In this document: positions 4,348-62,890 of the stretch, piece by piece
Position numbering within the stretch: the first letter of the stretch is position 1
Layout: each line of letters opens with the position of its first letter
Source of the DNA: Morinoia aosen
Lineage: Eukaryota > Arthropoda > Malacostraca > Amphipoda > Talitridae
Direction: 5' to 3'
DNA: 64,000 bases
NCBI GenBank assembly: GCA_030386875.1
Contig: CM059566.1
Location: 41,886,068-41,950,067 of the forward strand
The notes under the pieces: model-generated
Database searches by the model: none
Told to the model about the DNA's origin: nothing
The model's input: only the letters and a program-made list of their open reading frames with translations
Translations under genes and position numbers: made by a program

Positions 4348-5946
4348 TCAGGCTATTTTTAACTGAAATGATGATAACATTGAATTTAGAGCTGGCTTTA
4401 ATTCTTTGATGTAACGAGATTCTAGTATATGTAGGTCGTTTTTATTTGCACAGAAATTTAAAATTGAAAAATCAGATTTGCTTACTATTACACTACACTG
4501 CTCTGCGTGATACCTAATGGCTGAAAAAGATGGCTTTGCTAAAACTCTACCCGCTCTAGAGCTCCTGCCAACGTGCTCAAAAAATCTTATTCTAAGACTA
4601 CGCTGGGTGCAACCCACGTAGCTAGACCCGCACAGCGGGCAACAATACTTGTAGATTAAGCGATAGCACAGTTCAGTAGGTAGGCGGTCTTTAAATCTAA
4701 AAAATGATCCTATACTACGCTTGTTTGTCAATATTGGAATAAAATCTAAGCAATTGTAAAATTTCTCCACCAGCTTTGAAACTTCACTGGCGAGCTTCTC
4801 AGACTGTGCACCGTAAAAAAACAAGTTACAGTAGAATTTCTTTTTCTTTACAGTTGTCTCAGAGTAGGTCGGCATATATATTTTGTCTAAAAATAGCCTT
4901 ATAATTTTAGAGACTAGATTATTCGGAAAACCGTTGTAACTGAAAAAGGTTTGTAGAAAATTAAATTCATTATGCATATTGTGGTACGTTGAACTTAAAT
5001 GAAAAGCTCGATGCAACAAGGTTTTAATGCTATTGAGTTTAAACCTAAATGAACAAAAACTAAAAAAGCTAGTGCCCAAACCCGTAAAGGTGTTTTTCCT
5101 GTAAACAGAAGTTGTGAACCTTTGATTTTGTTTTTCAACGGAACAGTCCAGAAAAGCAAGCCTATGATTAGTTTCACATTCCAACGTAAATTTTAAATTG
5201 GCGTGTTTGGAATTGATGTAGTCCAAGAATTTACTTGCATGACACTCCTCACGGAATATAACAAATGTGTCGTCAACATACCTCCTGTAAAAAATTGGCG
5301 CAAAGTCTAGCGGACACTCGGATAACCAGTTCACCTCATGATGACACATAAAGATATTTGAGAACGTCGGTCCTAATGGGAGACCCATTCCTCAACCTTC
5401 TGTCTGCCGATAAAATCTACCTTGGAACATGAACACAGAATTCAGCACAGCCATTTCGAGTAAGGTCTTAAAATAATTCAGAGTCAAACCTAACACTACT
5501 TGACTAGACTGATACAGGTACCCTAGGCAAATTTGTACTGTCTCGTGTAGAGGAACGTTAGTAAAAAGATTCTCGACGTCATACGACACCATAAAACAAG
5601 GGGTATCTATTTTCAAACTACTGATTTCAGCGGCAAATTGTTGAGAATTTGAAACAGTGAACTGGTTAGAGGTGTACGGATTCAAGACAGAGACAAGATA
5701 CTTAGCTAGTTTAAAGGTAGGACAATTATATGCAGCAAATATTGGACGCATTTGAAACATTGATGAAAAATCCACTTTATGAATTTTAGGAAGACCGTAA
5801 AGTATACCAGGGGCTGAGCCCGAGGCATACAGCTCTTTGTAAAGAACTTCTGAAATTAGTTCAGATTGCTTGAGTTTACGTAAGAAATTATTGACTTTGT
5901 CTTCAATTCTCTGAATAAGATTGTGCACTGGCTCTTTGATTTCCAC
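4348..5946 (-). pseudogene. PLE reverse transcriptase / GIY-YIG endonuclease, broken
   Basis: The product would copy element RNA into DNA at a nicked target. Reading leftwards, the visible parts are: the LYGLPKIHK motif near the start; the YDVENLFTNVPL catalytic block (first Asp); GMGLPLGPTF; RRYVDDTFVIF with the YVDD active site; LECETNHRLAFLDC; and a C-terminal GIY-YIG domain introduced by a Cys pair, CCPLCGSSYVGCTQRSLRIR, with FFEH downstream. RT followed by GIY-YIG is diagnostic of endonuclease-bearing Penelope-like elements. The frame is split into two open segments (5392-5946 and 4348-5388), with one interruption between the TEG and GMGLPLG blocks. More 5' coding sequence (DKGNGVV block) extends to about 6070. 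It is very similar to the right copy, differing at scattered residues. Confidence 0.85.
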
Positions 5947-6082
5947 GAATTTAGTGCGGTCTGAAATTATATTGCAAGGCTTTCGACGTAATTCCTAAGA
6001 TCCAACAAAACTACGCCGTTACCCTTATCGGGCCGAGTGACAATTAAATCTTTGTTTCTAGCTAGATTCCGTAAAAGAGCGT

Positions 6083-6164
6083 TTTTGAAACAAATAGCCC
6101 TTCGGTATTACCATAACTTCAAATCGTTCAAAAATTTTTTCTGCCATTTTCAATTCTGAAGACT
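6083..6164. other. Spacer (loop) between the two PLE arms
   Basis: About 82 bases separate the arms. The inverted match (ttccgtaaaagagcg on the left, its complement on the right) ends at both edges. The spacer is not itself palindromic and I recognise nothing in it. It may be filler DNA or further PLE 5' sequence present in only one copy. Confidence 0.6.
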
Positions 6165-6471
6165 ACGCTCTTTTACGGAATCTAGCTAGAAACAAAGATT
6201 TAATTGTCACTCGGCCCGATAAGGGTAACGGCGTAGTTTTGTTGGATCGTAGGAATTACGTCGAAAGCCTTGCCAATATAATTTCAGACCGCACTAAATT
6301 CGTGGAAATCAAAGAGCCAGTGCACAATCTTATTCAGAGAATTGAAGACAAAGTCAATAATTTCTTACGTAAACTCAAGCAATCGAACTAATTTCAGAAG
6401 TTCTTTACAAAGAGCTGTATGCCTCGGGCTCAGCCCCTGGTATACTTTACGGTCTTCCTAAAATTCATAAA

Positions 6472-7896
6472 GTGGATTTTTCATCAATGTTTCAAATGCG
6501 TCCAATATTTGCTGCATATAATTGTCCTACCTTTAAACTAGCTAAGTATCTTGTCTCTGTCTTGAATCCGTACACCTCTAACCAGTTCACTGTTTCAAAT
6601 TCTCAACAATTTGCCGCTGAAATCAGTAGTTTGAAAATAGATACCCCTTGTTTTATGGTGGCGTACGACGTGGAGAATCTTTTTACTAACGTTCCTCTAC
6701 ACGAGACAGTACAAATTTGCCTAGGGTACCTGTATCAGTCTAGTCAAGTAGTGTTAGGTTTGACTCTGAATTATTTTAAGACCTTACTCGAAATGGCTGT
6801 GCTGAATTCTGTGTTCATGTTCCAAGGTAGATTTTATCGGCAGACAGAAGGTTTAGGAATGGGTCTCCCATTAGGACCGACGTTCGCAAATATCTTTATG
6901 GGTCATCATGAGGTGAACTGGTTATCCGAGTGTCCGCTAGACTTTGCGCCAATTTTTAACAGGAGGTATGTTGACGACACATTTGTTATATTCCGTGAGG
7001 AGTGTCATGCAAGTAAATTCTTGGACTACATCAATTCCAAACACGCCAATTTAAAATTTACGATGGAATGTGAAACTAATCATAGGCTTGCTTTTCTGGA
7101 CTGTTCCGTTGAAAAACAAAATCAAAGGTTCACAACTTCTGTTTACAGGAAAAACACCTTTACGGGTTTGGGCACTAGCTTTTTTAGTTTTTGTTCATTT
7201 AGGTTTAAACTCAATAGCATTAAAACCTTGTTGCATCGAGCTTTTCATATAAGTTCAACGTACCACAATATGCATAATGAATTTAATTTTCTACAAACCT
7301 TTTTCAGTAACAACGGTTTTCCGAATAATCTAGTCTCTAAAATTATAAGGCTATTTTTAGACAAAATATATATGCCGACCTACTCTGAGACAACTGTAAA
7401 GAAAAAGAAATTCTACTGTAACTTGTTTTTTTACGGTGCACAGTCTGAGAAGCTCGCCAGTGAAGTTTCAAAACTGGTGGAGAAATTTTACAATTGCTTA
7501 GATTTTATTCCAATATTGACAAACAAGCGTAGTATAGGATCATTTTCTAGATTTAAAGACCGCCTAACTACTGAACTGTGCTCTCGCTTAATCTACAAGT
7601 ATTGTTGCCCGCTGTGCGGGTCTAGCTACGTGGGTTGCACCCAGCGTAGTTTTAGAACAAGATTTTTTGAGCACGTTGGTAGGAGCTCCAGAACGGGTAG
7701 AGTTTTAGCAAAGCCATCTTTTTCAGCCATTAGGGATCACGCAGAGCAGTGTAGTGTAATAGTTAGCAAATCTGATTTTTCAATTTTAAATTTCTGTGCA
7801 AATAAAAACGACCTACATGAACTAGAATTTCTTTACATTAAAGAATTAAAGCCAGCTCTAAATTCAATGTTATCATTTCAGTTAGAAATAGCCTGA
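6472..7896 (+). pseudogene. PLE reverse transcriptase with GIY-YIG endonuclease, 5'-incomplete
   Basis: The open frame covers 474 codons of the PLE protein. It begins inside the conserved KVDFSSMFQMRPIFAAYNC block and has no authentic start, since the upstream coding sequence is in another frame. Motifs in order: MVAYDVENLFTNVPL (about residue 63), GLGMGLPLGPTFANIFMGHHE (about 127), RRYVDDTFVIF with the YVDD active site (about 163), METCETNHRLAFLDC-like block (about 197), and the C-terminal CCPLCGSSYVGCTQRS ... FFEHVGRSS GIY-YIG domain (about 383-425). Key RT aspartates and the GIY-YIG Tyr and Arg positions are present. The frameshift and the 5' truncation make an active product unlikely. Confidence 0.85.
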
Positions 7897-8022
7897 CTCT
7901 CAGAATTAATTGCAGTATAATCTCTGTTTTTTTTGTTTTTTTTGTTTCTTGTACTCTTTAAAGTTGTATTCATTTTGTCTTTTAGCTGTGTCTTGTTTTC
8001 TGTATTTCAATTCGCTTTTACA

Positions 8023-8062
8023 GGTGTTGATAATGGCTTGAGCTTTAAGCCGAAACGTTCAC
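8023..8062 (+). ncRNA. Hammerhead-ribozyme-like motif, right PLE copy
   Basis: The same TGATAA-like box, ggctt/aagcc stem II and GAAAC as in the left copy, about 130 bases after the stop codon of the RT gene. PLE hammerheads are thought to process element RNA. Two core positions deviate from the consensus, so it may be degenerate. Confidence 0.4.
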
Positions 8063-8104
8063 GTATTAAAATGGTCATTAAATTGGTATCTTTGCTATCT
8101 TTTT

Positions 8105-8117
8105 TGAAGGATATGAT
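8105..8117 (+). repeat. Right target-site duplication of the PLE pair
   Basis: Exact 13-bp copy of 4093-4105. It continues into agttatcga, and the reverse complement of about 8628-8642 contains the same join (aaatctgaaggatacgacag, then ttatcga) with no insert. That paralogue has the left flank and the right flank fused, so it represents the empty site. Confidence 0.7.
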
Positions 8118-8650
8118 AGTTATCGATTTCCACTTTCTGGTGCCTGAACCTAATTATTTGAATCATAATAAACAAGTTTTCTTCTATGTACTTTCAGCTT
8201 CAAATGAGTATTTCACGAGTCACAGCGGTAGGTATAGTTTCGTCTCGGATGACGAATGCGCTCGAATAAGCAGCTCCTCGTCGATTTTCAAATATTTGTT
8301 GCTCGAATCATAGTAATAGCATCGAAATGAACAACTTATATTCTATACACTTTTTTCGTCAAATGGGTACTTAACCGAGGTATAGCGGTAGGTTTGGTTT
8401 CGTCTTTGATGACGATCGCGCTGGAAGCGAATGCGCATTGCAGTGTTGCTGTCAGACGTGCTCCTTGAATTACTTGCCGCTTCAAACACTGGAGTTGCGG
8501 TAAGTCATTTACCGCTGTAACCAATAAAATACTCATTTGAGACGGAAAGTGCATAGAAGAAAACTTGTTTATTTCGATCTAATTAATTATGCTCTGGCCA
8601 TCGAAATTTACACAATCGATAACTGTCGTATCCTTCAGATTTACCAAAAA
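8106..8650. repeat. Complex inverted/direct repeat (insertion target of the PLE pair)
   Basis: Plus-strand sequence from 8106 to about 8236 reappears inverted at about 8642-8507. Shared segments include gttatcga, aaacaagttttcttctatg and caaatgagtat, then acagcggta. A third, diverged copy in direct orientation lies at about 8295-8440 (gcggtagg, tttcgtct, gatgacga). This is a foldback-type repeat with three related units. No coding capacity is seen. Confidence 0.55.
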
Positions 8651-30597: not shown

Positions 30598-31057
30598 CTA
30601 TGCCACTACGGACGCTTCCATCATCTCATCAAACATCTCTAGGAGACGTGAATTCATTAAAGAATTTGTTTTCAGCTTTTTAAGCATGAATTGCTGCAAT
30701 TCTTTTTTGTCGGCATCGTTCATCTTTTTAAGCAGAATGTCAACGTCAAGGACGTCATCGGAGTTCTCGCACACGAGCGGGATCATTATCAGTCCAGCAA
30801 GGAGGCCAAAAAGCAACTTATCTTTGTATTCTTGTTTAAGCTCATCAACAGTGAATTTCAATTCCACACCCGCAGCCTGACTGACGGCAGCGTAACACGA
30901 ATAATAATTCTCCATCACAGAATCCCAGTGCTTCATCCTGAAGTCTCGGTCGACGCTGGTGTAGGACAAGTAGTGGAGGTCCGCCACCACCGAGGTGACG
31001 CGGTGGAACTGGAGATCCAGAAACTTGCACTCGGTCACGCGGCCAGAGCTGTCGTAT
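30598..31057 (-). CDS. EcKL gene A, last exon (C-lobe)
   Basis: Starts after tctcgacag with YDSSGRVTECKFLDLQFHRV, the family's second metal-binding motif, and ends SVVA, stop at 30598-30600. The alpha-helical C-lobe (FTVDELKQEYKDKLLFGLLA) is typical. Its splice position is identical to that of gene B's last exon. Confidence 0.85.
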
Positions 31058-32126
31058 CTGTCGAGAAAATGTGCTTTTAAGTGATGGAAATTTTTTACAC
31101 ATCTGTCAAGAAAAATTTCGGCTGTGATCTTATTGGAGTCCATACTGTGATAAAAGTTAGCCATTAAATTTTATACCCTTCTAAAAAGTACGCGCATCTC
31201 GTACTACCTTTTATGTGTTCACAAATACGAGTATTCATAGTGTGTAGTTGGAAGGAATCAATGGCTAATTAAGTTTAAAGGCTTAATTTACTCCTACCTG
31301 AAAAGAAAGTTGTTGTTCCAAGCATCTCCGTGGCATATCGAAAAGAAGGGAGACGAAGTTTGTCTCTGCAAATCGTAAAGCTCATGTGCCTTTGATTCGT
31401 TCTTTCTTAGGAACTCTGCCATTTTTTCATATCCTGGATTAATTTCGGCAGCTGCTATCCCGGTTGAGATAAAAGAATTAAAAAATTCTTCATATGTGAC
31501 CAAACACTGGCTTTCCTTCTTCAGGATACTGAACTGATCTTCGACGCAAGGGAAAACCTTGATTAGTTCGAGACCTTTTACTTGGTTCTTGGCCATGAGC
31601 AGAGAGGCGGCCGCGTGCAGACGCGCCAGCTCGCGGCAGATGCAAGTCATGTGCTCTAAATCGAGGGGCGACGTGCGGTCGCAGAGCCTGAAGTCTCTCA
31701 AACGCAGGTCCTCCAGGTACAAAACTTTGCCGCCATTCCTGACAACTGCCAGGTAGCATTTTGGGACTTGCAACTGGGGTTGACCGACTGCTTTAAGCTC
31801 ATCGTTCAGCAACGGAACTAATTTTGAATAAAAATCTGATTCCTTCGTGAACACAAACATAGCGAAGTCGTATACTGCTGAGGAGTGAACTGGAGTCGCT
31901 TTCACGATGAAGGAAGTCTGTTTGGCAACTCCGCGTAGGGTGTAGAACACAGCTACGCTGGTCATTGTGCCCAGGTAGTTGTCTCCTTTCTTGGTGAAGT
32001 CTCGAACTTCGTACCTTTCAAACTGAGCTTCCGCGCCCTCGGCGTCCGCAAGGGCTTTGGCGATGTCATGTTCACGAATGAACTCGTAAGTTACTTCGCT
32101 CGGGGACGTGTGATGTTCTTCCTGCA
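30598..32126 (-). CDS. EcKL gene A: ecdysteroid-kinase-like (CHK kinase-like) protein, first exon missing
   Basis: Two exons, 32126-31298 and 31057-30598, join in phase 2 (AG|A = Arg) across a 240-bp GT-AG intron and give 429 aa, close to the usual 400-430 for the family. Visible parts: the nucleotide loop GDNYLGTMTSVAVFY (about residues 39-53); the ATP-binding Lys in SFIVKATP (about 67); YLEDLRLRDFR (about 130); the Brenner motif CHGDAWNNNFLF with catalytic Asp (about 266-277); and the second metal site FLDLQFHRV with Asp (about 290). Such kinases phosphorylate ecdysteroids (22-phosphates) or other small alcohols in the cytosol; the substrate is unknown. The exon begins after acceptor tactccttcag in phase 1. 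The missing N-terminus must come from an upstream exon I could not locate. No frame break is seen. Confidence 0.85.
31298..32126 (-). CDS. EcKL gene A, exon 2 (N-lobe to catalytic loop)
   Basis: Starts after tactccttcag; gene B has its acceptor at the same place and phase (G|TG, Val). It ends NNNFLFR with donor CAG|GTAGGA, phase 2. A longer stop-to-stop frame extends to 32148 but has no ATG, which supports a splice acceptor here. Confidence 0.85.
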
Positions 32127-48597: not shown

Positions 48598-49705
48598 CTT
48601 TGGGGAACGGGTCATACGTTATGGGTTGTTTATTGACTATTAAATATATTTCTATTTCTGCGAGCTATGGAACGGGTCATGAATTATGGGATGTTAATTG
48701 ACTATTGAATACATTTCTATTTCTGCGAGCTATGGAACGGGTCATGAATTATGGGATGTTTATTGACTATTAAATATATTTCTATTTCTGCGAGCTATGG
48801 AACGGGTCATGAATTATGGGTTGTTTATTGACTATTAAATATATTTCTATTTCTGCGAGCTATGGAACGGGTCATGAATTATGGGATGTTTATTGACTAT
48901 TATATACTTTTCTATTTCTGCGAGCTATGGAACGGGTCATGAATTATGGGATGTTCATTGACTATTGAATACATTTCTATTTCTGCGAGCTATGGAACGG
49001 GTCATGAATTATGGGTTGTTTATTGACTATTAAATATATTTCTATTTCTGCGAGCTATGGAACGGGTCATGAATGATGGGTTGTTTATTGACTATTAAAT
49101 ACATTTCTATTTCTGCGAGCTATGGAACGGGTCATGAATTATGGGTTGTTTATTGACTATTAAATACATTTCTATTTCTGCGAGCTATGGAACGGGTCAT
49201 GAATTATGGGATGTTTATTGACTATTAAATACATTTCTATTTCTGCGAGCTATGGAACGGGTCATGAATTATGGGTTGTTTATTGACTATTGAATACATT
49301 TCTATTTCTGCGAGCTATGGAACGGGTCATGAATTATGGGTTGTTTATTGACTATTGAATACATTTCTATTTCTGCGAGCTATGGAACGGGTCATGAATT
49401 ATGGGTTGTTTATTGACTATTAAATACACTTCTATTTCTGCGAGCTATGGAACGGGTCATGAATTAAAGGATGTTTATCGAATATTGAATACATTTCTAT
49501 TTCTGCGAGCTATGGAACGAGTTATGAATTATGGGATGTTTATCGAATATTGAATACATTTCTATTTCTGCGAGCTATGGAACGAATTATGAATTATGGG
49601 ATGTTTATCGAATATTGAATACATTTCTATTTCTGCGAGCTATGGAACGAGTTATGAATTATGGGATGTTTATTGAATATTTAATACAGTTTTCTTTCAA
49701 CGAGC
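48598..49705 (+). repeat. 65-bp tandem array, about 17 units
   Basis: cgagctatgg recurs every 65 bases exactly (48661, 48726 ... 49636; 16 copies), with a partial unit before and a decayed one at the end (caacgagccatc). The unit is gagctatggaacgggtcatg, then aattatggg, tgtttattgactatt, aaatacatttctatttctgc. Units from about 49460 onward form a sub-type with atcgaatattgaatac and gaacgagtta, so the array grew by local duplication. Units are over 90 percent alike within a sub-type. Confidence 0.9.
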
Positions 49706-52832: not shown

Positions 52833-53292
52833 TCACGGAATTGCGCGAGAACTCATGGCGTCATCAAAGAGCGACAACAACCTTGGTTTCAAGAGAGGGT
52901 TTTCTTGGAGCAATTTCATCGACTTCTCATGATATTCCGTCGTTTTAGCCTCCATGTCCTCCCCGTAGAAGTCCTCCATTTGGAAAGCGTCTTCAGGGTC
53001 TGTTATGATCATGGGGATGAGGAGGAGTCCCATCAAGAAACCAAACATCGTTTTCTCACGAAATTCGGTCTTCAGCTCTGCCAGCGTGAACCTCATAGGC
53101 ATGCCGGCTTTGGCCACGACCCTCTCGAAGCTTTCGTAATAAATGGTGAAGAAGTTGTCGGAGTTCTCCCTGCGAGTGTGACCGTCAAGGCTGCAGTAGA
53201 AGAGCAGGTTGAGGTCGAGGGCTACAGAGCCCACTCTGCACAGCTGGAAGTCCAGCATTCTGCAGTCCCTCACCGACCCCGTGTCGTCATAC
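52833..53292 (-). CDS. EcKL gene B, last exon (C-lobe)
   Basis: Acceptor catacgcag; encodes (R)YDDTGSVRDCRMLDFQLCRV through SSRAIP, stop at 52833-52835. Same length (460 bases) and phase as gene A's last exon. The GFLMGLLLIPMIITDPEDAF helix is typical for the family. Confidence 0.85.
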
Positions 53293-56200
53293 CTGCGTAT
53301 GTTCAGTCAGTATTTACCACATCTTGGGAGGTTGTTTTGAAGTTTTAGTTTCTGGGAGGTTTACTAAAAGATGTATTTTACGTTTTTATGGGTTATTTTC
53401 AAAATATGTGCCGCAGAGACCAAATATGAATCTTTTAAATTTTTATAATTTACATCTTGTGAGGTTGTTTAGAAATAGGAATTTCTCAGAGGTTTAATTT
53501 GAGATGTGTTGTACATATTTTTCGGGGTTATTCTCAAATAGGTACCACAGAGACAAAATATGAATTTTATAAAATTTTGTAATTTGCATATTGTGAGGTT
53601 GTTTGGAAATAATAATTTCCGGGAGGTGTACTGTGAGATGCATTGTAGCTTTTGGGGTGTTATTCACGACATATGTATCACAGAGACACAAAATATGAAT
53701 TTATCATTATTTGTTGTTTTCTACATTACTTATTCAACGTCAAAATTCAGGTTTTGGATATAAGATTAGAGTAAGTGAGGGTCTTCATGGTTCTTAGGAG
53801 TTGCCATCAAATAGAGAGCATATGGTATAAAAACTAATTTGTTTAATTAAGTTGAACCTATAATAATTTCAAAAGGAGTAAATAACATCGATTTTCATTT
53901 CGCTTAGAACTCATGAACTTTGATAGATATGTCACATTTTACGAATTCTTTGCTGGTTGATGCATCCTGTCTTAATTTTCATTAAAATTACAACACGAAG
54001 GACCATGGACAAATTGAACAAGCTTTCTCATGCACAGGCGACATGAAGCATTCACCTGAACAGCAGATTGTTGGTCCAGCAGTTCAAGCATTCACCTGAA
54101 CAGCAGATTGTTGGTCCAGCAGTTCAAGCATTCACCTGAACAGCAGATTGTTGGTCCAGCAGTTCAAGCATTCACCTGAACAGCAAATTGTTGGTCCAGC
54201 AGTTCAAGCATTCACCTGAACAGCAAATTGTTGGTCCAGCAGTTCAAGCATTCACCTGAACAGCAAATTGTTGGTCCAGCAGTTCAAGCATTCACCTGAA
54301 CAGCAGATTGTTGGTCCAGCAGTTCAAGCATTCACTTGAACAGCAAATTGTTGGTCCAGCAGTTCAAGCATTCACCTGAACAGCAGATTGTTGGTCCAAC
54401 AGTTCAAGCATTCACCTGAACAGCAAATTGTTGGTCCAGCAGTTCAAGCATTCACCTGAACAGCAAATTGTTGGTCCAGCAGTTCAAGCATTCACCTGAA
54501 CAGCAAATTGTTGGTCCAGCAGTTCAAGCATTCACCTGAACAGCAGATTGTTGGTCCAGCAGTTCAAGCATTCACCTGAACAGCAAATTGTTGGTACAGT
54601 AGTTCAAGCATTCACCTGAACAGCAAATTGTTGGTCCAGCAGTTCAAGCATTCACCTGAACAGCAGATTGTTGGTCCAGCAGTTCAAGCATTCACCTGAA
54701 CAGCAAATTGTTGGTCCAGCAGTTCAAGCATTCACCTGAACAGCAAATTGTTGGTCCAGCAGTTCAAGCATTCACATGAACAGCAGATTGTTGGTACAGC
54801 AGTTCAAGCATTCACCCAAACAGCAAATTGTTGGTCCAGCAGTTCAAGCATTCACCTGAACAGCAGATTGTTGGTCCAACAGTTCAAGCATTCACCTGAA
54901 CAGCAAATTGTTGGTCCAGCAGTTCAAGCATTCACCTGAACAGTAAATTGTTGGTACAGCAGTTCAAGCATTCACCTGAACAGCAAATTGTTGGTCCAGC
55001 AGTTCAAGCATTCACCTGAACAGCAGATTGTTGGTCCAGCAGTTCAAGCATTCACCTAAACAGCAAATTGTTGGTCCAGCAGTTCAAGCATTCACCTGAA
55101 CAGCAAATTGTTGGTACAGCAGTTCAAGCATTCACCTGAACAGCAAATTATTGGTCCAGCAGTTCAAGCATTCACCCAAGCAGCAGATTGTTGGTCCAGC
55201 AGTTCAAGCATTCACCTGAACAGCAGATTGTTGGTCCAGCAGTTCAAGCATTCACCTGAACAGCAAATTGTTGGTCCAGCAGTTCAAGCATTCACCTGAA
55301 CAGCAAATTGTTGGTCCAGCAGTTCAAGCATTCACCTGAACAGCAGATTGTTGGTACAGCAGTTCAAGCATTCACCCAAACAGCAAATTGTTGGTCCAGC
55401 AGTTCAAGCATTCACCTGAACAGCAGATTGTTGGTCCAACAGTTCAAGCATTCACCTGAACAGCAAATTGTTGGTCCAGCAGTTCAAGCATTCACCTGAA
55501 CAGCAAATTGTTGGTCCAGCAGTTCAAGCATTCACCTGAACAGCAAATTGTTGGTCCAGCAGTTCAAGCATTCACCTGAACAGCAGATTGTTGGTCCAAC
55601 AGTTCAAGCATTCACCTGAACAGCAAATTGTTGGTCCAGCAGTTCAAGCATTCACCTGAACAGCAAATTGTTGGTCCAGCAGTTCAAGCATTCACCTGAA
55701 CAGCAGATTGTTGGTCCAGCAGTTCAAGCATTCACCTGAACAGCAGATTGTTGGTCCAGCAGTTCAAGCATTCACCTGAACAGCAAATTGTTGGTCCAGC
55801 AGTTCAAGCATTCACCTGAACAGCAGATTGTTGGTCCAGCAGTTCAAGCATTCACCTGAACAGCAGATTGTTGGTCCAGCAGTTCAAGCATTCACCTGAA
55901 CAGCAGATTGTTGGTCCAGCAGTTCAAGCATTCACCTGAACAGCAAATTGTTGGTCCAGCAGTTCAAGCATTCACCTGAACAGCAGATTGTTGGTCCAGC
56001 AGTTCAAGCATTCACCTGAACAGCAAATTGTTGGTACAGCAGTTCAAGCATTCACCCAAACAGCAAATTGTTGGTCCAGCAGTCCAAGCATTCACCTGAA
56101 CAGCAAATTGCTAGTCCAGCAGTTCAAGCATTCACCTGAACAGCAAATTGCTAGTCCAGCAGTTCAATCATTCACCTGAACAGCAGATTGTTGGTCCAGC

Positions 56201-59200
56201 AGTCGCCATGGTTGATGGCCCTAAATTTGTCCTCTGACTTGAGCGCTGCCCTGTACAAGTCTGTGAGGGAGTCGCGGTTGGTCCTGAGGAACTCGGCCAC
56301 TTTCTCGTACCCCTCGAAGCTCTCGGCGATCACAACTCCGCTGTCAGCCATGCCTGAAATGATCACGTTCTTCAGCCAGCAACAAGAAAACATCTTTATT
56401 GAGCCCTCCATTTTAACAGTCGTGATTGGAAATGATTTGGAAGCTTCTCAGCCTATAGGGAGGAAGTGAGTGAAGAGAAACCTCATAGGGGAAAAGAATT
56501 CCCTAGCCCTTTTTTACTGGTCTCTGTTTTTTGTTATCACCACAGGAGCTTCTCAATTTCACACGAAAAAGTTGTAGAAGCCTAACAAAGGTCGAACCAG
56601 AGTCTATCTTGTCCTAAGGGTGACGCTTTAATCTTGACGAAATTATGAAAACAATATCATTTTGTTTTGTCTCAAAGAGCAACGTCACGACCTCAACTTA
56701 TTATGCAGTAATGAAAACAGCGTTTCCTCAAAATAACAGGGTGTCTACTGATATTTCATTTCCAAATTTTACTACTTTTTACTACCTTCAACAGAAAAAA
56801 AATTACTACCTATTTTTCACACAATGAGTGTTTTCCAAATGTCCAGATGCAAGTAATCGGCCTAAAATGAGTAGTTTTTGAGTCAATAATATACGCAGTA
56901 CCATAGGTTAAAAAAATGTCCAAGTTTCTTAATACTTGAAATACTTAATACTAAATGGAGCAACCAAAGCATTACTGCAAAAAAAGTTACCTAAATTCCT
57001 AAGATACTCTGTCCTAAATGGACTCGAACGAATGTTTGGTAAAGACCTTGTCTCAACATCTTTCAACTATTAGGACAACAGTTCATCATATGAAAAAAAT
57101 AAACTGACTGGAAACTAGTAGACACCAGGGGATTGTCAGATCCCTTTACAGCAGGGTAGAATATCAGGGAATGTTACTATGACCAAACACTATGGCACTT
57201 CGGAAATATGAGTTTATGAACTATTTCTATCATACCTCAAACTCTAAATCGGCACCCTAATTGCGATCAATAATGATAACAAATAGGTTATTAACAAGTT
57301 ATATTACGGAAAAAATCACGAAAATTTGCTATGTGTAGTAGAAGAATGAACTTTGATTAGATAAAGCATCACCATGCTCCTATGACGACATCCTGGAGGT
57401 ATCTGAATCGCCATGACTGCCAAAAGGAACTTCAAAGGAACTTGACTCTCGTTCAAATGATTACTCATTGCATTGAAAGATAATTTCATAGCATAATTCT
57501 TTCAGTATTTGGACATAAATAAACGTCATTAGAAAGAGAAAACTTTCAGCTCTACGAAGAGGTAATTTTTTTCAGAAAAAACATTTATAGTTACAGTAAA
57601 TCGTTGTTTCCCCACATTGAAGTGGAAAGAATAAACTCGTCTTTTCAAAGGAAGATAATAATGCTTACAATCAAGCTCAGGTCCAAAAAAACACTTCCTG
57701 GATTTAAATTTTAAATGAACTGCGGAGAAGTTTCTTTGACGTCATTGCAATGTTTTTATCCTGCCGCAACAACTTGGAGTGTGAAAATATTTGTCTTTGA
57801 ATAAGAATTGGAAGGTTGCATCAAGTTTATGATAATCAAGATTTCACCAGCCAAATATATGACTTTGAATTAAACATTGTTCATTAGGAGGATCGAAATG
57901 TGATAAGTTTGATTCAGAACTTACTCATCTGAAATTGTAGCAGGAGTCTCTAAATGCTAATTGAGAATAATTTAATTTCTGTGCTTACGTTTGCGAATAA
58001 AATACTCTAATTTTTGAGTATCACGTGCACAATAAGGACAATTATGCCAACTATGCTATATATCCCACAGGCAACTGCATCCACTAAAGATGAAATCCAA
58101 TAAAATGTAATAATTATTTAGTGATCAGTACAACTACCTATTCGAAAATTTTGGCTAGTTGTTTAATGTTTATTCATAAAATTTAGAAGAAAAAGTTTAC
58201 AAGATGTTTGACATTAAAAGAATCATAATTCGCAATAAAATATAAATTATTTTACTTGACAAACATATTTCAATCAAAGCCACTTGATATACTTCCACGA
58301 GAAAATATGTAGCTAGAATATTTCATTTTTCCCGAGATCGTTTAATGCATATTTGATACGTAAGAATAAAAGATGTCAAATGTCGACCTCATAGTCATAA
58401 ATGCACAATTTTTAAATTCTTAATTTATTTTCAATATTAATCTCTGATATCGCAAATTCCTAAGCTTTTATTTCAATGAAGTGCGCACTTATAGAAGTGT
58501 TTTCAACAATGCATCGTCACTGGTTTTATATTCTTAAAATTTATATTCATACGATTTATGAAACCTCGATTACCGCATCAAAGCGAAAACCATTTTTTAT
58601 TTTCTCTCAAAAATTTGTTAATAATAAAATTGCTCAAATGAACCCCCATCATAAAAAAATGTGATAACTTTCAGACCAAACTGAATGAGAAGAAAAAGTG
58701 TACTATTTTTACTGTCGTTCGCAAAAATTTTGGAACTTTTTTCTATTTTGTGTCCTCCAATCCTAAAATTACACCCCGCTTTACAGGAATATTTCCCATA
58801 AGCCGAGGCAAATTTCTGATTATGGGAGAAATAAATTTTAAAAACATCTTTATACTCTATAGTATATACATATGTAACATTACTTTAAATTTGCAGAGAA
58901 TTATTCCCCTTCACAATTTTTTACTACCCTGAGGCAAATTTTACTACTTTTTATTACTTTTTTACTACTTCCCAAATTTTAATACTTTACTACCTATTAG
59001 ACACCCTGTATAAGCATAAGCTTGAATCCACATTATTTTTGGAATGTTTGGCTTTTCACATAAATCGTTGTTGGTCTCGTCAAGGTTGCTGGAGCAAGCA
59101 CCTGCATCAATCCCGAAACCAGCAACGCAACTAATGCCACAGAAAATGAGAGGACAGTAGAGAAATCTTACACAACAGAACGGCAATAAAACTGATGAAG

Positions 59201-60008
59201 TTCAAACAAATCGTTTTATTTTTGAGCAACCTAAAGAAAATATTATGTTTGATCCGTAGCAATGAAAAATTTTAAGATTACTGAAACTTACGACTTTCCA
59301 TTAGGCATTGTGAAAATATTAGGCCTAAATATGGTAGATTGAAATTTAAAATACCGTACTCCCTACCAGGGAAAAACTCGTAGATGCTGACTGTGCTGTT
59401 TTGGTCGCGCAGGATATTAAACGCTTCTTCGAGCTCTGGAAATCGAGTGGCCCAGTTCACAGCGTGATTTTCAGCCTTCCGAGTCAACAAGGTAGAAGCA
59501 GCATGGAACCTCCCCATCTCCGCAAGCACGCACTCAGCAAGCTCTTTGGTCAGACCAAGTTTTCTGTCTGCCATTTTGAAGTCCAACCGCCGAAGATCTT
59601 CGAAATAATAGGCCTCTCTGTGCTCTGAAGTCTCGCCGTGTATAAAACGCGGCACTCCCAGCGGGGGTTCCTGGATGATATCAAGTTCGTAGTTCAACTG
59701 CGGAAGGACTTTGGTGTAGAACCCAACTTCCTTCCAGAAAAGCGTTCGGGTGAACTTGTCGAAAATGGCATCTCGGAGAGGGTTGAGCTTCACAACGTAA
59801 GATGTCTGTAAATCTACACCGTTGAGCTTATATGCGATTTTGACACTCGTCAGAAAACTGGCAACGTTATCTCCTTTGGCAGTAAAATCTTCAATGGTGA
59901 AGCTTTCCAGCACTGCAGTGGCGCCCTTGTCTCTCTGGAGGGCGGCCTCCACGTGTACTCTGCGGACCAGGCCGTGGCTGCGCTGTTCCTCATTCTTGAC
60001 CCGAGTCA
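52833..60008 (-). CDS. EcKL gene B: ecdysteroid-kinase-like (CHK kinase-like) protein, first exon missing
   Basis: Three exons, 60008-59367, 56353-56176 and 53292-52833, join in phases 1 and 2 and give 426 aa. Visible parts: GDNVASFLTSVKIAY nucleotide loop (about residue 39); ATP-binding Lys in SYVVKLNP (about 67); YYFEDLRRLDFK (about 132); the Brenner motif NHGDCWTNNLLF with catalytic Asp (about 262-272); and metal-binding MLDFQLCRV (about 286). It is a paralogue of gene A, 20 kb away on the same strand and collinear throughout. The intron after LFR is shared. The intron inside YEFF-PG is absent from gene A. Both large introns are filled with repeats: a putative transposon in one, a 40-bp array and 134-bp repeats in the other. 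No frame break is seen, so it may be functional if splicing copes. Likely role: phosphorylation of a steroid or xenobiotic alcohol; substrate unknown. Confidence 0.85.
53318..53705. repeat. 133-134-bp tandem repeat in the last intron of gene B
   Basis: gaggttgtt recurs at 53328, 53461 and 53595. Units share gggaggt-ta, agatg-att, gggttatt, cagagac-aaatatgaat. About 2.9 units, 80-85 percent alike by eye. The array begins about 25 bases from the splice acceptor of the last exon. Confidence 0.65.
54046..56204 (-). repeat. 40-bp tandem array, about 54 units, made of an exon end plus its 5' splice site
   Basis: ttcacctgaa recurs every 40 bases from 54051 to 56171 (54 starts). On the coding strand each unit is tgctggaccaacaatctgct, then gttcag|gtgaatgcttgaac: 26 bases of exon 3 of gene B coding CWTNNLLFR, and 14 bases of intron with the GT donor. 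The last unit on the plus strand (56171-56204) is the genuine exon end. Units differ mainly at one site (CTG or TTG, both Leu) and a few others (for example ggtacag, ctagtcc, cccaaa). A few units lose the AG|GT join; most keep it. The array takes up about 2.1 of 2.9 kb of the intron. Confidence 0.95.
56176..56353 (-). CDS. EcKL gene B, exon 3 (catalytic loop)
   Basis: Acceptor gatcatttcag; encodes (G)MADSGVVIAESFEGYEKVAE through INHGDCWTNNLLFR. Donor CAG|GTGAAT, phase 2. The last 26 bases of this exon and the first 14 of the intron are the founder of the 40-bp array that starts immediately downstream. Gene A matches residue for residue in style (INPGYEKMAEFLRKNES ... CHGDAWNNNFLFR). Confidence 0.85.
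56737..59008. mobile_element. Putative DNA transposon in the gene B-specific intron
   Basis: Perfect 10-bp terminal inverted repeat: cagggtgtct at 56737-56746 and agacaccctg at 58999-59008. Just inside both ends lie ccaaattttactacttt and tttactacc-type motifs. No transposase is visible and no clear target duplication (caaaataa left, tataagca right). An internal near-copy of the end (agtagacacc, about 57117) suggests nested or shorter elements. It takes up 2.27 of the 3.01 kb of the intron. Confidence 0.4.
59367..60008 (-). CDS. EcKL gene B, exon 2 (N-lobe)
   Basis: Acceptor atttcattgcag in phase 1, at the same position as in gene A. Encodes V-TRVKNEEQRSHGLVRRVHV through STVSIYEFFPG. Donor CCTG|GTAGGG, phase 1. 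The open frame extends upstream to 60183 only by chance, through a 49-bp minisatellite. Confidence 0.8.
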
Positions 60009-60049
60009 CTGCAATGAAATATACATCAGTGATATTGACAACACAAGAG

Positions 60050-60275
60050 TAGAAAATGACGGTCGCAGAATACGTTGATGAGCAGAATGCAGGAATGATG
60101 AAGATAGACGTTCGCAGAATGAATGGAGTAGCAGAATGTAGGAAGGATAAAGATAAACATTCACTGAATGAATTGAGGAACACAATATAGGAGTGATAAA
60201 GATAAACGTTCGCAGAATGAATTTGAGGGGTTGAATATAGAAATGATAAAGATGGACATTTGCAAAATAAAATGA
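60050..60275 (-). repeat. 49-bp minisatellite upstream of EcKL gene B exon 2
   Basis: gataaacgttcgcagaatga or close variants start at 60103, 60152, 60201 and 60251 (period 49-50), with an earlier partial unit at about 60053. It lies 40 bases 5' of the exon acceptor on the coding strand, where branch point and pyrimidine tract are expected. Confidence 0.7.
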
Positions 60276-62890
60276 ATAGAATTGTACTGAAAAAGAGAGT
60301 GTCAAAATTTAAATATCGATGCAGTGAGTTGTGGACATCCAGATCAATTACTTTGAGTTTGAAAAATTAAATATTGTCGTAGACTAATAGGAAATGATGA
60401 ATCCGAACTTTATTTCCACGAAAATATTTCCGTATCAGTGTTACGAATTTGTTGAGAATAATACATCTGAGATGTCAGATTCACCTTCGTAAAGCGTGTG
60501 TGTGTTTTCTGTTGCCTCATTTTTCGCACGAGAGATAACGCGTTTACACTATGAGCGCCGCTCGTATACAGTATTGATCGCCACTGATATCGCAAACGAT
60601 GCGTGTGCGCGAGGACCAAGTCTTGAAAAATTTCGTGCGCCACAGTACTATTACTGAAAATTGATACTACAAACTCCACTGAAACACTGTCAACGTGCAT
60701 TGCTCTGTCTAATAGAACGAGGACCTACCGATCAAAAGGCTTCATAAATCAAGCAAAGAAGGCAGGGGCAATCCGTTGACTCATTCGAATGATATTTCAT
60801 CCAATGTCATAACCCTTTACCATGGGCAAAAGGCTTTGCGCTTCTGCTAACGGCCGAGCTGCAAGCATAAACCTTCGTGTTTGCCGCCAGACGTGGGGCT
60901 GCTTTATACTCAGTACACGCCAGATGTACGATTATTCATTGCGAACTGCATAAAGATAAGTTAAACATCCGTTATTGCAAGTTACTCTTCAATTTTCATA
61001 TTTAGGAATAGAGAAAGCAGCACACGCCACATCAAAAATAAACAATACCAAATACTCACTAGCGCTACGTCCGTCACGCGATGCAGGGACGTTGGAAACG
61101 CGAAACTGAAGGTAAACACACGCTTCGGAATGGATTAATACTTACAACCAATTGTTATACAGCTCAGTGAGTTATAATAAAACTTTAGGCAGATTGAACG
61201 TAAATAGATAGTAGAAAGGAAACAAAAGATCACATCACCACACCCGCAAACGCGTATCATTGACACTGAAACGTGAATGAAAACTTCGCGAGAAGCGTAC
61301 AGCTGATCGGATATTTGTGTTCGAAGCCCTGCTTTCAAACATGACTGCGGTTTGGTTTTGAGGATTTTATATTCAATTGTGCTCTAAAATACAGTGTTAA
61401 ATAAATTCATTAACTCTAAATGAAAATAATATTCAAATAAAAGACAGTGATGATTTATTAGATGTTTAAAAACTGGGAAAACCTGGGTTTTTATCTCTAC
61501 TTCGCACGAGGTTAAGGTCAAGCGCAGTGGCTGCGAACACTTCAGGCTCGCTCCCTCGTGCGTTTGATCGCGTTCGTAACGAGTCACAAGTGTCGTTAGT
61601 TGGCGCTCTCGGAGTGCATGACGCAATTGAATTTATTGTTTCTTCACTGTCTCATTCATTTGTTCACATCCTGCATAACAGCGCAAGTTTAATTTTAGTT
61701 AGACGTAGGTCCTCTTTTGATGTTTCCAAACAGCAACGCAGACTTGCTGCATTTTCGACGATCATGCTTCAAGACATTTTCGCAGGTGTATCTCTGTTGA
61801 TAAGAGCGAAAGATAAAAATTTGTACAACTTAAAGCATAAAAGGAATGGGATTGTTTTGTTATTTGTATATTGTAAAATTTTATCGGCCAGCGTACATCC
61901 GATATTTGAGTTTGCAAATACCTTTCGGTGACCATGAGGGGGAGCAACGTTGGCACTCAGGTTATTTTTTATGAGTTTTTAGTAAATTATACACCAGAAG
62001 TTGGTTATGAGTTATCTGCGAGATAGAACTTATTTATGAAATAACAGCTCCAATTGAGCAATAAAGTTTAAGAAAGTTGTCAATTGAACGGCAGTTAAAT
62101 ACCATAACATATGATTTAAATACCTTATTAACTATAAATGAACATGGGTATAGTTGGTGCTAGCGTTCAGGTGACTCGAAAAGTTTCATGGTTCAAACTT
62201 TGAAACAATTTTAGTTTTTTTTTTAGTTGAACTTTTTTAGTTGAAGCATATTGTCCGCTATCATACTATAGTAGCTTCGTGAAAACTACAAACTTTTTAT
62301 CTAACATACGAGATGATAAGAATATGCTGAGGTAGTACGGATTACCGTAAGAATGTATTTTGCTTGATATTTTGCTATGTCGCAATCAAGTCCTCAATTG
62401 ATTAGTTGAAAAAAATTTGAATTTCAGCCAATTGGTGATTTATTTAAATTTTGTTGAAACATTATTAAGCACACAATGAAAGTAATATTATGTACGAAAA
62501 ACAAATGACTGAACGTAACGTGAGATCAAGAGATGCATGCATGGATGTGCGAGAGAATTTCACGTACACAATTAATACCTGAGGAAATGAGCGAAAGAAT
62601 TTATAGCCACAGAATTGCTGAGTGTCATGAATCTTATAACAGAGAATTTATCCTTTTTCTATTTTAATAAACTCACAATTACGATGCACATTGCTATTGA
62701 AGTTATTTATCTCACCTTTGCATATGTGAAACAAGTTCGAACGTTTCATTTTTCTAAGTCGAGATCTCAGCAGAAAAGGTTGCACTTGAAAATCATAGTT
62801 CACCAAATAACTGCTGCTATTTCATTGTTTTTTATAATCAAGTGAGTACCCGTTGCGACGTGAGGGCGTGCAATTTCAGAGAGAACCATC
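60276..62890. other. Upstream of EcKL gene B; no exon firmly recognised
   Basis: Two GC-richer islands (about 60500-60720 and 61500-61640) could hold the promoter or first exon of gene B. A minus-strand frame there (60700-60410) resembles no family, and its donor candidate is in the wrong phase. The remainder is AT-rich. Confidence 0.3.

Follow-up and report, generated by a model that had tools for sequence, protein, structure and literature searches.

An EcKL exon edge that probably became a 54-unit minisatellite, with a second array on another chromosome

At this locus the 5′ splice site of a kinase-like gene stands at the head of a long tandem array whose units repeat it, and the question is how such an array arose and whether it does anything for the gene that carries it. 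The window, by which we mean the whole stretch of DNA that was analysed, comprises 64,000 nucleotides of contig C11 (C11:41886068–41950067, CM059566.1) in a genome of 1.99 Gb and 29 contigs. Coordinates without a contig name are positions in the window.

Results

Tandem Repeats Finder reports an array on the minus strand at 54046–56203, with a period of 40, 54.0 copies, 95% matches, 0% indels and a score of 3945, in agreement with the earlier note, which had described about 54 copies at 54046–56204; the copy number is that of the assembly and of one genome. Its 40-bp units, head to tail and highly identical, fall within the range of minisatellites (roughly 10–100 bp). A unit-by-unit table places the 54 units at 56202–54043, a span of 2.16 kb, and each departs from the consensus used at 0–4 positions. 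There are 17 distinct unit sequences in mixed order, and when the array is compared with itself at a lag of 26 units, as for a higher-order repeat, 10 of the 26 pairs consist of identical units.

On the minus strand the unit reads CTGCTGGACCAACAATYTGCTGTTCAG|GTGAATGCTTGAA, the last 27 bp of an exon followed by the first 13 bp of its intron. The proposal that the unit joins an exon end to an intron start is therefore sound, but its division into 26 and 14 bp is not, as the donor cut, within unit 1, separates exon base 56176 from intron base 56175. That unit (56163–56202), made of the genuine exon end (56202–56176) and the first 13 intron bases (56175–56163), is continuous with unique exon sequence and lies in an open joined frame, so that, as had been claimed, the exon truly ends in this terminal unit, and the units align to this end over the shared 27 bp. 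At the intron-side end, the last bases of unit 54 (54043–54082) pass into unique intron (CATGTCGCCTG). The array is thus a tandem repeat across an exon–intron boundary, the junction itself being placed by the reading frame and by the gene family.

The gene to which this exon belongs matches PF02958 (EcKL, ecdysteroid kinase-like, a family common in arthropods) over three exons, which score 80.3, 34.4 and 57.7 bits (cut-off 22) and make it a family member. All three lie on the minus strand: an upstream exon at 59367–60009 (match at C11:41945531–41945944), whose 5′ limit is arbitrary; the 178-bp exon at 56176–56353, which ends in HGDCWTNNLLF(R) (match at C11:41942239–41942442); and the last exon at 52833–53292, which runs from YDDTG through MLDFQ to the stop (match at C11:41939173–41939361). 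Joined, they form a single open frame with 426 residues and a stop, which is partial and has no located start codon, and which reads NHGDCWTNNLLFRYDDTG (CWTNNLLFR–YDDTG) over the array-bearing intron, with MLDFQ further on. These matches and this frame uphold the earlier reading of the unit as an exon–intron junction of a kinase-like gene. The intron (53293–56175, minus strand), as placed by the frame, runs from the donor CAG|GTGAAT at 56176/56175 to the acceptor CGCAG|G at 53293/53292 and holds the other 53 units; it is 2883 bp long, or approximately 750 bp once the array is subtracted. It also contains a 134-bp repeat in 2.9 copies (53319–53704), and downstream of the gene lies another tandem array, of a 65-bp unit in 16.7 copies with 95% matches (48604–49688). 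The intron upstream of the array exon carries a copy of a very common transposon (~56737–58988). Another EcKL gene is present in the window at 30898–31989 (minus strand), and many more are clustered at C11 38.87–39.02 Mb.

A motif search of 20 family loci, which misses genes whose motif differs, returned 13 rows: the array gene, one locus that lacks the intron and 11 that carry TTCAG|GT at this position. Two of the latter are equal in the printed exon-end bases, leaving 10 distinct sequences. The array unit is absent behind the exon end at all 11, within the approximately 54 bases after the motif that were examined, and a family-wide array is therefore not seen. Because these loci share the splice site without the unit, the intron position probably predates the array. 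The two equal loci, L041 (C1:44254000–44261000) and L042 (C1:42043500–42050500), are EcKL genes that lie 2.2 Mb from each other and whose matches score equally; they represent either a recent duplication or a duplication in the assembly.

The donors of the array are nearly uniform. From -3 to +6, CAGGTGAAT (CAG|GTGAAT) is the sequence in 47 of the 54 units, counting the real site; four read TGGGTGAAT, and TAGGTGAAT, CATGTGAAT and CAAGTGAAT occur once each. GTGAAT is kept in every unit, and 46 of the 53 later donors equal the real one over these nine positions, so that, as in a multiple-splice-donor minisatellite of the IFI6 type, the units carry a donor as good as the genuine one. By weight matrices that, for donors and acceptors alike, are approximate, the real donor scores 8.68, which none of the 263 GTs outside the array in 53297–60366 reaches. 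The ten distinct family donors of the same intron score 7.34–11.28, five below and five above that of the array gene. Use of a later donor would not preserve the protein: for units 2, 3, 4, 11 and 54, a stop follows straight after NNLLFR in all five, 274 residues into the partial frame, because a TGA spans the donor. All five would yield one and the same truncated product, which would presumably be degraded.

Variation within the unit is uneven. Among the 52 interior units, 1 of the 13 columns in the intron half varies versus 12 of 27 in the exon half (p = 0.03), which could hint at constraint. In 23 units of a second array, described below, the figures are 3 of 13 versus 13 of 27 (p = 0.18, not significant); with these two values, we do not claim selection on the intron half. 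At position 17 of the unit, the exon has C, as do 22 of the 54 array units (unit 1 included), and the remaining units have T.

The unit is not confined to the kinase gene, a point that the earlier note had missed. A 35-place pattern searched through the 1.99-Gb genome with up to three mismatches has at least 73 places (such counts of repeats being lower bounds), on one strand and in two clusters only, the kinase array and C4:61494769–61495683. The reversed pattern has none in the same genome, and the match is thus far beyond chance. The C4 array comprises 23.7 copies by Tandem Repeats Finder, or approximately 24 units, with a further piece of the unit at C4:61499189–61499235. Between the array and this last piece lies a transposon copy (~4717–8190 of locus L009, with extra sequence inside) that is 86% identical to the window copy at ~56737–58988 and apparently landed in the C4 array. 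This transposon has 1092 first-look candidates genome-wide, so its presence near both arrays is unremarkable; we rule it out as the carrier of the array, as it lies inside the C4 array but across the exon from the kinase array. The form CAAGTTAAT occurs in 10 of 23 C4 units and is absent from the kinase array. Approximately 1 kb from the last piece, a possible coding exon (MKLESPLFDHHSKKRKMDAEDVGRIY followed by GTGAGT) was seen by eye at L009:9245–9322.

On both sides the C4 array is bordered by sequence that matches one repeat family (29 and 40 matches, the C4 locus itself included). In 13 of 13 fetched copies this repeat is uninterrupted, its flanks continuous without an array and close to TTTATGTCCATTTAGACTTTTAAAACC; the 13 were chosen for having both flank matches close together, and copies with their pieces further apart (for example C5:2783228/2784434 and C8:46498140/46498511) fall outside this set. 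By eye, no target-site duplication longer than approximately 3 bp is visible at the C4 array. PF02958 has 47 matches genome-wide and none on C4, so that C4 is most likely the recipient of the array. The unique intron beside the kinase array matches elsewhere solely through its array bases, and the probable direction of the move, from C11 to C4, rests on the exon. Both C and T occur at position 17 among the C4 units, as they do in the kinase array. More than one type of unit thus probably moved, in which case the transfer was probably later than the position-17 variant and carried several units, but recurrent mutation may also lie behind the shared variant.

Discussion

We think it likely that the array is a minisatellite that originated at the 3′ edge of a coding exon, and that it is a tolerated by-product rather than a selected device. 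Because the unit occurs at two loci only and the repeat that hosts the C4 array is uninterrupted in all 13 chosen copies, the array probably had its origin in the kinase gene, from which a block moved. A short tandem duplication across the EcKL exon–intron junction would have placed a copy of the 5′ splice site in the intron, and slippage or unequal exchange could then have expanded the duplication to 54 units. The exon-proximal donor can, by the frame, still be joined to the downstream exon and is presumably the one used, and the protein would be kept for this reason. A block of approximately 24 units would subsequently have entered the repeat copy on C4, where no clear target-site duplication is seen; a DNA fragment or circle released by the array would be the simplest source. 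As to the founding event, the ancestral segment lies between the two copies of a direct repeat (CATGGCGACTG / CATGTCGCCTG), but only 9 of their 11 positions agree and 5.8% of sampled intron places match equally, so that founding through this repeat is not significantly indicated and we have set it aside.

It is less simple to judge whether the array also works for the gene. Two related possibilities, a recursive (ratchet) splice ladder and a landing array for U1 snRNP that tunes splicing or gene output, start from the coincidence, within each unit, of a 3′ with a 5′ splice site, which reads TTCAG|GTGA in 47 of 54 units. Several observations would suit them. First, the three unit acceptors scored give 6.12 and 6.66 by a simple matrix, above the intron's own acceptor (3.67) and no lower than that of the preceding exon (6.12). 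Second, GTGAAT is kept in 54 of 54 units, and the intron half of the interior units is the less variable (p = 0.03). The acceptors are not exceptional, however, as scores at least equal to theirs are reached by 13 to 20 of the 278 AGs that lie outside the array. Moreover, the exon-side bases of the donor are altered in 7 of 54 units, and the C4 array shows the same lean toward a less variable intron half, not significantly. Finally, sites 40 bp apart leave no room for introns between neighbors. On balance, a working ladder or landing array seems improbable. One form of it deserves mention. By its sequence, splicing between two units, from the GT of the first to the CAG of the second, would leave CAG|GTGAAT at the join, and splices inside the array would thereby erase themselves. 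A tandem series of AG|GT points, each acceptor and donor at once, could in this way allow the intron to be removed in varying numbers of steps with the mRNA unchanged. We doubt that such a self-erasing ladder operates here; if it did, the rate of intron removal, and hence enzyme output, could be tied to copy number.

Two further explanations are to be weighed. The first is that the assembler enlarged a short real duplication. Assembly is difficult for arrays with 40-bp units, but the 17 distinct unit sequences are in mixed order, and the second array on C4 is diverged, with variants of its own and a transposon insertion; we regard an artefact as very unlikely. The second, that the unit is a dispersed satellite or part of a transposon that landed in the gene and came to abut the exon by chance, could appeal to the C4 array and the transposon sequence beside it, but it is extremely unlikely. 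The unit contains 27 bp of coding sequence that form the end of this very exon and run on from its unique part, and the motif that they encode is encoded by other family genes as well. Moreover, the C4 array breaks a repeat which is whole in all 13 chosen copies, and a transposon with 1092 first-look candidates is unremarkable near both arrays. A chance or satellite sequence that merely abuts the exon is ruled out, as the unit is the exon's own end.

The evidence suggests, then, that the edge of a coding exon turned into a minisatellite and afterward seeded a second chromosome. For splice-site choice the gene offers a natural experiment: its array has 47 donors identical from -3 to +6, and the right protein needs the first, so that the gene would show whether position alone, as the exon-proximal site, decides splicing.

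Several known systems bear on how new this is. One is the human multiple-splice-donor minisatellite of the IFI6 type, in which the unit is reportedly 12 bp long. It was described by Turri et al. in 1995 and is cited in PMC2572611, PMC4526556, PMC2915984 and PMC3618361, and according to PMC4526556 its downstream repeat units serve as donors. Together with a survey of boundary repeats from 2009 (PMC2812944), it overturns the earlier statement that no such case had been described. Both the human array and the kinase array have tandem units that carry splice donors. The latter differs in its 40-bp unit, its 27 bp of enzyme coding sequence and its 54 copies, in the immediate stop that follows the later donors tested, in having a second array elsewhere, and in that use of its internal donors is hypothetical.

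The 2009 survey reports internal tandem repeats at exon–intron boundaries in human segmental duplications, with 27 intron modifications; its variable repeats, exon and boundary cases taken together, average 30-bp units, 4 copies and 160 bp, and most have RNA support. Like the kinase array, they represent minisatellite expansion across an exon–intron boundary, whereas the array here has 54 units over 2.16 kb and is described from genomic DNA. In the Rogers model (PMC4974935), AGGT segments that are duplicated in tandem give rise to new introns, and one case, in fission yeast, involves repeats of 24-bp segments. There too the duplicated segment contains AG|GT, and each copy supplies the two splice signals, 5′ and 3′, but in the kinase gene the AG|GT is an existing exon end, and its copies lie within an old intron so that no new one is needed. 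Within the EcKL family, the array gene matches PF02958 over three exons and differs from 11 other loci in what follows the same exon end, within the bases examined there. Among the matches listed, which leave subscription journals mostly uncovered, none is an equally long array that also moved to another chromosome, and this absence does not prove that there is none. An array of this kind is already known; what is unusual in the kinase gene is the number of copies and their transfer to a second chromosome.
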